From positions 62,001 through 126,000 of the forward strand of contig JAFQRW010000011.1 of assembly GCA_017409875.1 (NCBI GenBank): DNA of 64,000 bases, written 5' to 3'. A program made the position numbers and the translations under genes. The stretch comes from Clostridia bacterium. GTDB taxonomy: Bacteria > Bacillota > Clostridia > RGIG6154. The notes below the pieces were generated by a model that searched no databases, was not told the origin of the DNA, and saw only the letters and a list, made by a program, of their open reading frames with translations. Of the stretch, positions 19,519 through 40,871 are shown piece by piece; the stretch's first letter is position 1; each line of letters opens with the position of its first letter.

Positions 19519-19791
19519 ATGAATAAGACAGAACTTATTGCTGCTATTGCTGAAAAAGCAGAACTCTCTAAGAAAGATGCTGAAAAAGCATTAGCTGCTT
19601 TCATCGCAAGTGTTGAAGGTGCTTTAGCAAAGAATGACAAAGTTCAGTTGGTTGGCTTTGGTACATTTGAAGTTAAAACAAGAGCTGCTAGAAAGGGTAG
19701 AAATCCTCGTACAAAACAGGAAATTACAATCCCTGCTTCAAAAGCTCCAGCTTTCAAGGCTGGTAAAGCATTTAAAGATGCTATAAAATAA
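19519..19791 (+). CDS. hup: DNA-binding protein HU
   Basis: A 90-residue histone-like protein. It starts [20 protein letters not shown], contains the [20 protein letters not shown] core and the [16 protein letters not shown] beta-arm with the conserved intercalating proline, and ends [12 protein letters not shown]. The ATG is preceded by AGGAGGTG. A TTG two codons upstream is in frame but poorly spaced. It is monocistronic by its own promoter and terminator. Confidence 0.97.
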
Positions 19792-19803
19792 TAGCGCCTA
19801 AGA

Positions 19804-19833
19804 AGACAGTTCGGTTTCGGACTGTCTTTTTTC
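19804..19833 (+). terminator. Intrinsic terminator of hup
   Basis: AAGACAGTTC and GGACTGTCTT pair across a 6-base loop and run straight into TTTTTT. Confidence 0.9.
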
Positions 19834-19854
19834 TATAAAAAATATGGAGGAAAA

Positions 19855-20100
19855 ATGCGAGTAGACAAATTCTTAAAAGTATCACGGCTAATTAAAAGAC
19901 GTACTGTTGCTAACGAAGCCTGTGATAAAGGACGAGTTGCGATTAATGGTAAAGTCGTTAAAGCTTCTGCTATTGTTAAAGTTGGTGATATTCTGACAAT
20001 TCAACTTGGTGAGAAAGCGATTAAAGCCGAAATATTAAAAATTGATGAAAAACACGTAACTAAAGATGACGCAACATCAATGTACAGACAATTTGATTAA
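19855..20100 (+). CDS. rqcP: S4-domain RNA-binding protein RqcP (YabO)
   Basis: An 81-residue S4-domain protein: MRVDKFLKVSRLIKRRTVAN, then GRVAINGKVVKASAIVKVGD. The Firmicute homologue binds stalled 50S subunits with RqcH and supports poly-alanine tailing in ribosome quality control. It lies between hup and yabP, as in Bacillus (yabO-yabP-yabQ-divIC). SD GGAGG is right before the ATG. Confidence 0.9.
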   Translation: MRVDKFLKVSRLIKRRTVANEACDKGRVAINGKVVKASAIVKVGDILTIQLGEKAIKAEILKIDEKHVTKDDATSMYRQFD

Positions 20101-20101
20101 G

Positions 20102-20148
20102 GTATAAAATTCTCCTTTGCTAAATAGAATTTAAAAAAAGCAAAGGAG
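20102..20148 (+). promoter_or_regulatory. Hairpin with embedded candidate sigma-E promoter before yabP
   Basis: CTCCTTTGCT (20112-20121) pairs perfectly with AGCAAAGGAG (20139-20148). The right arm contains the yabP SD (GGAG). A sigma-E-like promoter overlaps the hairpin: GTATAAA at 20102-20108, a 14-base spacer and AATAGAAT at 20123-20130 in the loop. A start about seven bases later would skip the left arm. It could simply be a terminator followed by read-through; both readings fit the bases. Confidence 0.5.
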
Positions 20149-20155
20149 TTTTATT

Positions 20156-20446
20156 ATGGAGGAAAAGAAAAATATAAAAAGCGAGTCAGTTCATAACGTT
20201 ATTATGGAAAACAGAGAATCGCTTAGTATTTCTGGTGTAGAAGATGTTGAAACATTCAACGAAGAAAAAGTAGTACTAATAACACAAATGGGAGCACTTT
20301 CAGTAGAGGGGAGCAATCTTCACATTAATAAGCTTTCTGTAGAAACAGGAGAACTGCAAGTGGAAGGCGAAATCAATTCAATAATATATTTAGGAGATGA
20401 GTTTTCTAATTCTAAACAAGGTTTTTTCGCGAGATTATTTCAGTAA
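20156..20446 (+). CDS. yabP: Sporulation protein YabP
   Basis: A 96-residue YabP/YqfC-family protein made in the mother cell during sporulation. The family core is present: HNVIMENRESLSISGVEDVE, then FNEEKVVLITQMGALSVEG and GELQVEGEINSIIYLGD. No membrane helix is seen apart from a weakly hydrophobic C-terminus. It directly precedes yabQ and divIC. Its SD is buried in the hairpin described just upstream, so its translation may depend on which promoter made the message. Confidence 0.93.
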   Translation: MEEKKNIKSESVHNVIMENRESLSISGVEDVETFNEEKVVLITQMGALSVEGSNLHINKLSVETGELQVEGEINSIIYLGDEFSNSKQGFFARLFQ

Positions 20447-20459
20447 CAAGGAGTAAAAT

Positions 20460-21017
20460 ATGACAAATTCATTTTGCTCTGAGATAAAAGTGTTAGTTTG
20501 CTGCATAATTCTTGGTATAGCCTCTGGTGTAATTTTTGATTTTTTTCGTGCGTTGAGGTATGGTACAGTTGTTAAGCATTTTACAATTATCGTCCATGAT
20601 GGGATTTTTTATTTGTTAACTGCGATGCTAACATTTAAAGTACTCCTTTTTATAAACGGTGCTCAATTAAGGTTTTATATGCCTGTTTCGGCGTTGATTG
20701 GGTTTATATTTTACAGACTGATTATCAGTCAACAAATACTATTGCTATTTGTTAATATAAAAAAATTGCTTGTTTCTGTACTGAAAATCACCTTTAAAAT
20801 TGCTGTGCTTCCTGTGGTAAAAATATTAAAATGGTTGCTCACTCCTGTTTTGCTATTAAAACGCAAAATTTTGATAAAAAAAGATAAAATTGCATTGACA
20901 TTTGATAGATTTTGTTTTAAAATAAAGTGTAATGTTTTAAAGTTGTTTGGTGGCAGAAAAATTTGCAAGGAGCGTAAGCCGTGTCGAAAAAAACAAAGAC
21001 CACAAAAAAGAGTTTAA
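20460..21017 (+). CDS. yabQ: Spore cortex biosynthesis protein YabQ
   Basis: A 185-residue membrane protein with about four N-terminal helices and a very basic C-terminal tail. ASGVIFDFFRALRYG and DGIFYLLTAMLTFKVL match the YabQ family, which is needed for cortex formation in the outer forespore membrane. SD CAAGGAG lies before the ATG. The last 37 bases overlap the divIC gene in another frame, a compact arrangement conserved in this locus. Confidence 0.93.
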   Translation: MTNSFCSEIKVLVCCIILGIASGVIFDFFRALRYGTVVKHFTIIVHDGIFYLLTAMLTFKVLLFINGAQLRFYMPVSALIGFIFYRLIISQQILLLFVNIKKLLVSVLKITFKIAVLPVVKILKWLLTPVLLLKRKILIKKDKIALTFDRFCFKIKCNVLKLFGGRKICKERKPCRKKQRPQKRV

Positions 21018-40052: not shown

Positions 40053-40382
40053 ATGCCAATGGATCAATTTGTAGCGCAGTACGGTATGTGGATTTATCTT
40101 ATTTTTATCATTGCAATTTTTTATTTTATTCTTATAAGGCCGCAAAGAAAAAAAGATAAAGAACACAAGAATATGATTTCATCTTTAAAAAAGGGTGATC
40201 AGATTTTAACTATTGGTGGATTTTATGCCAAAGTTGTTTCACTCAAAGACGATGCTCTTACAGTTATGTTGGGGGATACAAAAGTAAAAATTGAACTCGG
40301 TGCTGTTAAAACTGTTATTAAGTCAAATAATAATGCTGAAGCAGCTTTAGAAGAAGAAACAAACGAAGAAACAGCTGAGTAA
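40053..40382 (+). CDS. yajC: Preprotein translocase subunit YajC
   Basis: A 109-residue SecDF-associated membrane protein. One helix (about residues 12-30, MWIYLIFIIAIFYFILIRPQ) precedes the family signature RPQRKKDKEHKNMISSLKKG and DQILTIGGFYAKVVSL. The tail is Glu-rich. TTTGGAGG precedes the ATG. It is vegetative by promoter, and a terminator-like hairpin separates it from the next gene. Confidence 0.95.
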   Translation: MPMDQFVAQYGMWIYLIFIIAIFYFILIRPQRKKDKEHKNMISSLKKGDQILTIGGFYAKVVSLKDDALTVMLGDTKVKIELGAVKTVIKSNNNAEAALEEETNEETAE

Positions 40383-40387
40383 TTAAT

Positions 40388-40450
40388 GAATAATTAGCAC
40401 ATTCCTTGCATAGTATTTAATAACTTATGCCGCAGGGAGTGTGTTTTTTT
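40388..40450 (+). promoter_or_regulatory. Terminator hairpin with embedded candidate sigma-E promoter after yajC
   Basis: CACATTCCTTGC (40398-40409) pairs with GCAGGGAGTGTG (40432-40443; two G-U pairs), followed by seven T: a good yajC terminator. The same bases carry a sigma-E-like promoter: GAATAAT (40388-40394), a 14-base spacer and CATAGTAT (40409-40416). Initiation about seven bases further on lies in the loop. The right arm contains the SD (AGGGAG) of the following gene. The geometry matches the yabP upstream region. Confidence 0.55.
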
Positions 40451-40871
40451 GAGCAAAATTTCTTATATTAAGTCTATCGATAATTCACAACAAAACATAA
40501 ATTTTAAGCGAGCATTTAAAGGAGTGCTTATATCAATTTTTGTTAATATAGCGTTATTGATACTGCTCGCTGTGATAATAACATATTCCAACCTTGAAAT
40601 CGATTATGCACCGTTAATTGGCAAAAGCATTTTCTATCTTGGTGCATTTCTTAGTGGCTTTTTTTCAAGTCTTGGAATTAAAAATAATGGTTGGATATTA
40701 GGGTTGCTTTCGGGAATTGTTTATTCACTGACAATTTTGTTGTTTGGTGCGTTAGCATCCGAAAATTTTAGTTTCAAGCTTTCATTAATTACAACGCCTG
40801 CGTTAGCAATTATTTTAGGAGTAATCGGTGGTATTGCCGGGATAAATGTTAGAATAAAAAAAAGAAAATAA
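40449..40871 (+). CDS. YrzE/TIGR04086-family membrane protein
   Basis: A 140-residue protein with four membrane helices and basic ends: FKRAFKGVLISIFVNIALLI, GKSIFYLGAFLSGFFSSLGI, NNGWILGLLSGIVYSLTILL and a last Gly/Ile-rich helix before RIKKRK. Length, topology and its place right after yajC match the TIGR04086/YrzE group found in spore formers. The TTG start overlaps the T run of the upstream terminator, and its SD is the hairpin's right arm, so vegetative read-through should barely express it. Confidence 0.8.
   Translation: MSKISYIKSIDNSQQNINFKRAFKGVLISIFVNIALLILLAVIITYSNLEIDYAPLIGKSIFYLGAFLSGFFSSLGIKNNGWILGLLSGIVYSLTILLFGALASENFSFKLSLITTPALAIILGVIGGIAGINVRIKKRK

Follow-up and report, generated by a model that had tools for sequence, protein, structure and literature searches.

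An anti-Shine-Dalgarno arm inside a sigma-E-like promoter: a probable read-through insulator ahead of yabP in Clostridia

In the window (the whole stretch of 64,000 nucleotides that was analysed), the Shine-Dalgarno sequence (SD) of the sporulation gene yabP, a spore-cortex gene, lies in the right arm of a perfect hairpin whose left arm is contained in the -35/-10 spacer of a sigma-E-like promoter. We propose that this element probably combines a sporulation promoter with a read-through insulator, which would silence yabP in vegetative cells by termination or by masking of the SD. The source genome comprises 1.46 Mb in 23 contigs. The parts of the yabP locus are as follows.

19855..20100, + strand: S4-domain gene (RqcP), co-oriented, 55 bp upstream of yabP
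20101..20108, + strand: sigma-E-like -35, GGTATAAA (motif trained on other genomes' yabP promoters)
20109..20121, + strand: 13-bp promoter spacer with the whole left arm inside (direct reading and motif)
20112..20121, + strand: left arm CTCCTTTGCT, the anti-SD (direct reading and RNA fold)
20122..20130, + strand: sigma-E-like -10, AAATAGAAT, within the loop (trained motif)
20122..20138, + strand: loop of 17 nt (direct reading and RNA fold)
20136..20138, + strand: predicted transcription start at about 20137 (from the position of the -10)
20139..20148, + strand: right arm AGCAAAGGAG (direct reading and RNA fold)
20142..20148, + strand: yabP SD, AAAGGAG, entirely inside the right arm (direct reading)
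20149..20155, + strand: TTTTATT, SD-start spacer and possible U-tract (direct reading)
20156..20446, + strand: yabP, ATG at 20156 (TIGR02892)
20460..21017, + strand: yabQ (TIGR02893)

YabP is identified by TIGR02892 with 91.4 bits against a cut-off of 75.4. The upstream S4-domain protein, which we take to be RqcP, matches the related Hsp15 and TlyA models of NCBIfam below cut-off, and the reading frame downstream of yabQ is, judging from gene order, presumably DivIC-like. All ten positions of the stem are paired, five of them as GC pairs, the tail is TTTTATTA, and the SD ends seven bases (TTTTATT) before the ATG. The initial annotation had described this 10-bp stem (20112-20121 with 20139-20148) and the SD in its right arm, which direct reading confirms; the promoter halves that it named, GTATAAA at 20102-20108 and AATAGAAT at 20123-20130, are 14 bases apart and placed correctly. 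Its further claim, that the left arm sits in the spacer of a sigma-E-type promoter and the -10 in the loop, agrees with the trained motif, which finds GGTATAAA-N13-AAATAGAAT with 13.4 bits; the -10 deviates from this motif at its first bases. A spacer of 13 fits a sigma-E promoter, the B. subtilis logo having the -35 at positions 1-8 and the -10 at positions 21-30 of a 30-bp span like that at yabP (PMC517825). Compared with Rfam, the element matches no curated family; the single sub-threshold match, to BSnc120 (19762-19846), is outside the element and falls at a separate terminator-like hairpin with a T run (19804-19827) between the HU gene and the S4 gene. That hairpin is absent from our terminator scan because its loop is 10.

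A second locus in the window, at 40388-40451 in the initial annotation, was said to share this geometry, and the order of its parts is indeed that of yabP, with an arm of 14 pairs including G-U pairs.

40053-40382: yajC, directly upstream of the TIGR04086 gene
40387..40394, + strand: -35, TGAATAAT (promoter motif)
40396..40409, + strand: left arm, mostly within the spacer 40395-40407
40408..40416, + strand: -10, GCATAGTAT (promoter motif)
40432..40445, + strand: right arm including the SD, then a T run
40449..40871, + strand: TIGR04086 membrane protein gene (family match)

Would such hairpins be expected by chance in this genome? The yabP hairpin folds as RNA with -15.3 kcal/mol (z -3.4), a value equalled by 0/200 shuffles, and the complementarity of its upstream DNA to the SD segment has z -6.1, with p at the lowest value that 200 shuffles allow. 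Ranking used the window and 20 further stretches, about 427 kb of the 1.46 Mb (~29%), with 412 ORF calls of which 336 were scored after weak-SD and edge ORFs had been dropped. Here yabP is the most extreme of the 336 genes (z -5.3) and the gene at 40449 is second (z -5.2), while the sample as a whole, with 19/336 genes at p ≤.05, is at chance level. Over the whole genome, the pattern CTCCTT-N8..36-AAGGAG-N3..12-ATG has two matches, yabP and a rubrerythrin gene, and its backwards control has 0. The yabP hairpin is not a product of chance. At the rubrerythrin gene (L116:1490-1546; G000:C7:76485) the stem is CCTCCTTTTTTTT/AAAAAAAGGAGG, with the SD as its right arm and T7 and the ATG behind it: a terminator-like stem fused with the SD as at yabP, at a non-sporulation gene. 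The gene upstream of it is presumably methionyl-tRNA synthetase-like.

How far does the layout extend beyond this genome? Among genomes of relatives, 76/99 were matched for yabP. The 30 loci listed (one of them the window's own), 40 more that were fetched and a further 25 taken from named contigs give 95 yabP loci, that is 94 and the window, which L026 duplicates. Five of them (L035, L044, L046, L048 and L055) had no usable upstream DNA or start and were left out of the test on 90 loci. Compared with dinucleotide-shuffled upstream DNA, the hairpin has p ≤.05 in 27/90 loci (4.5 expected) and p ≤.01 in 8/90; at the other 63/90 this shuffle test found no significant hairpin, and it found none at L031, L033 and L034, which belong to the window's family (genus label g2). 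A rerun that also omitted L008 and L056 (doubtful starts) gave 25/88 significant loci, of which the 18 with genome labels span 12 families. Significant yabP hairpins are therefore found in at least 12 families, and their arm sequences differ; in G003, of the same family as the window, the layout is kept with another arm pair (L032).

The left arm matches the SD of its own gene. Mean pairing of yabP loci with their own SD is -12.2 compared with -9.8 (sd 0.26) with the SDs of other species, and 0/2000 SD permutations reach the own-SD value. When the window is withheld from training, the yabP loci yield the two-block motif GTCATAAT-N13-GCATATAAT, which is present in nearly all of them and allows the pairing to be placed relative to the promoter. 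From this positional test L021 and L054, all loci with a motif score under 11 and then 8 near-duplicates were left out. In the 77 non-redundant loci, own-SD pairing has one sharp peak, located in the -35/-10 spacer directly before the -10, where own pairing is -8.30 against -6.27 for permuted pairs (z -8.3); for windows whose start is 22 to 58 bases upstream of the -10, z ranges from -0.1 to -3.4.

Which other genes carry this layout? The TIGR04086 hairpin, more frequent than that of yabP, has p ≤.05 in 14/31 loci and p ≤.01 in 9/31, these being the first 30 listed and the window's own. Among 60 genomes searched for both TIGR04086 and yabP, 48 have both, 8 have neither and 4 are discordant, all four of these being under 83% complete. 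TIGR04086 is probably a sporulation gene, as yet unstudied; a literature search that covered few subscription journals found no paper on it. Further families were passed through the same pipeline with the first 30 loci listed for each (29 for yerC, L417 at a contig edge being omitted). At p ≤.05, yunB, first met via an unbiased pattern in another genome, reaches 7/30. In the best yunB cases the arm is again upstream of the CATA element, and the -35, compared by eye, resembles what we take to be the sigma-K type (AC). By the same threshold and among the loci listed, bofA (2/30), spoIVA (3/30) and yqfC (2/30) are at background, ylmC/ymxH (4/30, p.06) is near it, and the vegetative control yerC has 1/29. 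The layout therefore marks some sporulation genes and not all. Two single loci depart from their families. The bofA gene of the source genome (L096:4432) has a sigma-E-like promoter, TGAATATA-N13-ACATATTAT, with a left arm in and around the spacer (p.03) despite the background level of its family. At a YerC/TrpR-like gene (L110:19567-19659) the SD forms a hairpin with a left arm that lies before a sigma-A-like promoter; here the nested promoter is a vegetative one, in a case not recurrent among relatives. The recurrence suggested in the initial annotation is borne out, as a geometry, in other Clostridia at yabP, TIGR04086 and yunB and is not supported as a general rule, given the background families and the 63 yabP loci lacking a significant hairpin; nor is it confined to sporulation, since a hairpin over the SD also precedes the rubrerythrin gene and, with the sigma-A-like promoter in its loop, the YerC gene.

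A class-wide pattern was also searched. Counts of the version that does not include a promoter were not used, because the facing SDs of divergent genes form palindromes and some genomes have repeated boxes. Such boxes, SD-hairpin leaders that repeat as near-identical palindromes before several genes per genome, were seen in G221, G113, G179, G347 (family label f53) and G008, as CTCCTTCTTGGCAAGAATT...CCAAGGAGGAG...ATG and CTCCTTTCTGG...CAGAAAGGAG...ATG. With CATANNNT required in the gap, the pattern is found in 93/391 genomes, against 85/391 when the left arm is reversed and non-complementary. Raw frequency hardly differs from the control; placement and gene identity do. Correct placement (ATG 3-15 nt past the SD, outside a long ORF) holds for 10/30 loci listed and 3/30 control loci (p.06). 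Sporulation families account for 5/16 test loci with an ORF (three YlmC/YmxH, one YyaC and one YtxC below cut-off) and for 0/9 control loci, the tenth control locus being the same PdaA-like site as one test locus. In a second set, chosen by eye for longer stems, 15/20 sites have an ORF and 4 are sporulation-like: YunB, SipL/SPOCS and, below cut-off, PdaA-like and CwlD-like (one site repeats the first set).

The spoIVA gene of the source genome is itself split, by 21,874 bp (G000:C10:155785-179122; L100 from 9785, L101 to 13122). The junctions share a 9-bp repeat, TATACATAT, and the joined gene gives a gapless alignment of 488 residues, 63% identical to the SpoIVA of G003. Next to the C-side junction is a gene for a large serine recombinase with Resolvase, Recombinase and zinc-ribbon domains, and the cargo, judged from 10 scanned proteins, is polysaccharide synthesis-like, not phage. 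The insert looks like a skin-type gene-intervening element; among the abstracts listed by a literature search, such elements are described in sigK, spsM, gerE and yabG, and a spoIVA case was not found there.

How could the yabP element work? In growing cells, polymerase leaving the upstream gene would copy both arms, and the stem would hide the yabP SD in the read-through RNA, so that little YabP is made; where a T run follows, as at yabP, the stem may also terminate transcription. In the sporulating mother cell, sigma-E polymerase would start inside the loop or just beyond it, at about 20137. The stem needs an RNA that contains 20112-20121, and the sporulation message, which would begin at the right arm and have no left arm, should therefore not form it and would leave the SD free. 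The 13-bp spacer between -35 and -10, in which sigma-E accepts many sequences, would be used to carry the anti-SD arm. Predicted openness of the yabP SD is.63 in the native message and.14 in the read-through. By a strict count, an SD closed in the read-through and open in the native message is found in 8/25 yabP loci with a significant hairpin, 9/60 without one and 4/25 TIGR04086 loci, and openness thresholds separate yabP hairpin loci poorly from non-hairpin loci. At the second locus, where the earlier idea of silencing confined to read-through fares less well, the SD of the native message is predicted to be closed (.10) by a different local fold.

The upstream neighbour is in keeping with read-through as the selective reason. 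The yabP hairpin is significant in 17/38 loci where a co-oriented rqcP homologue ends no more than 150 bp away and in 8/50 others, where the homologue is farther away or not found (Fisher p.004, in a test that ignores phylogeny), and this association with a close upstream gene fits the proposed role against read-through. A cruder, ORF-based neighbour call did not reproduce it; such calls are not considered reliable, since some rqcP homologues detected by homology search had escaped them. What would a stop at yabP mean for the genes behind it? In B. subtilis, yabPQ is under sigma-E control inside a longer unit, yabMNOPQ-divIC-yabR (PMC1925097). Inside yabQ, at 20895-20923, the window has a sigma-A-like TTGACA-N17-TAAAAT (11/12 matches) upstream of the DivIC-like gene and likely its own vegetative promoter, so a stop at yabP need not starve that gene.

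The same neighbourhood could suit a simpler explanation, in which the hairpin serves the hup-rqcP unit as its intrinsic terminator, overlaps promoter and SD because the gap is just 55 bp, and masks the SD as a by-product. A T run follows the arm (TTTTATTA at yabP, seven T at the second locus), hairpin loci are T-richer in the SD-start spacer than non-hairpin loci (p.016 and.023), and a close upstream gene is what a terminator would serve. But with 17 nt the loop is longer than is usual for a terminator, and the generic scan found none at yabP, as it allowed loops of 3-8 only and excluded longer ones. At least four T in a row occur in the SD-start spacer of 7/25 yabP and 7/14 TIGR04086 hairpin loci, which may thus terminate too, whereas 18/25 and 7/14 have no such run and more likely only mask. 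Moreover, a terminator could do without the SD, whereas the arms here follow its sequence. We therefore regard a terminator with incidental masking as unlikely, although it deserves more weight than the explanations that follow.

Could the hairpin act on the native message in sporulation, for example by reducing its translation? The small RBS hairpin of sigG cuts translation 2-4-fold (PMC5942855), and L031, L033 and L034 have, by eye, short hairpins downstream of the -10. At yabP the left arm lies between -35 and -10, ahead of every start available to the yabP promoter, which makes regulation of the native message very improbable. About as improbable is a DNA operator for a repressor, SpoIIID or another dimer, across the promoter: palindromes over -10 elements are typical of operators and SpoIIID represses yabPQ in B. 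subtilis (PMC517825), but an operator would keep its sequence, and the arms vary between genomes, each tracking its own SD. A pyrimidine-rich spacer and a purine-rich SD might also be complementary by chance, to which the pyrimidine content of other sigma-E spacers (.51-.63) and the better scores of even mismatched pairs in the spacer might point. This is possible for single loci and contradicted at family level: the own-versus-other permutations and composition-preserving spacer shuffles exclude it for both yabP and TIGR04086 (shuffle z -6.1 and -7.3 in the spacer; -0.9 and -1.4 for a window that begins 40 upstream), and spoIVA, bofA and yqfC fail despite similar spacers. We give it next to no credence.

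The proposed read-through insulator at yabP may belong to a wider class. Plausibly, though we stop just short of calling it probable, some mother-cell genes of sporulating Clostridia carry insulators nested in their promoters. The sigma-E or sigma-K spacer would be double-coded, read as DNA by the polymerase of sporulation and as an anti-SD arm of the RNA in vegetative read-through, and such insulators would be gained and lost repeatedly where a housekeeping gene is close upstream. If true, this would explain how developmental genes behind constitutive genes are silent without a separate terminator or repressor. It would provide a rule for sequence scans (an anti-SD in the promoter spacer, a start site in the loop) and a compact design in which a gene is switched by the choice of start site.

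Parts of this arrangement have precedents. As in intrinsic terminators, the stem is followed by a T-rich stretch at many loci; unlike them, its right arm is the SD, its long loop (17 nt) contains the -10, and most yabP loci lack a T run. The B. subtilis sigG gene (spoIIIG), the sole sporulation case recognised in a literature search for the combination (one that covered few subscription journals), has a large leader hairpin proposed to block translation of spoIIG read-through, which cannot form on the PsigG transcript (PMC5942855). Like yabP, it is a sporulation gene behind another operon, but as described there the stem has 20+ bp, the gene is a forespore gene and the upstream operon is itself a sporulation operon, whereas here the stem has 10 bp, its arm takes up the promoter spacer, the genes are mother-cell genes with vegetative genes in front of them, and a T run sometimes follows. 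In phage T4, a hairpin hides the I-TevI ribosome binding site only in long early and middle transcripts, and the late promoter starts inside the hairpin, so that late messages have no left arm; I-TevII, I-TevIII, segB and mobE of phage Aeh1 are of the same kind (PMC2988022). The likeness to yabP, a paired SD in the read-through and a nested promoter, is predicted for yabP. The phage promoter is a late one and the excerpted account describes no terminator role, while the yabP arm lies within the spacer between -35 and -10 of a sporulation promoter, in a layout shared by several genes. The masking logic has a known example in T4 I-TevI and a proposed one in B. subtilis sigG; what is new, as far as can be told, is the arm in the promoter spacer and its recurrence at yabP, TIGR04086 and yunB.
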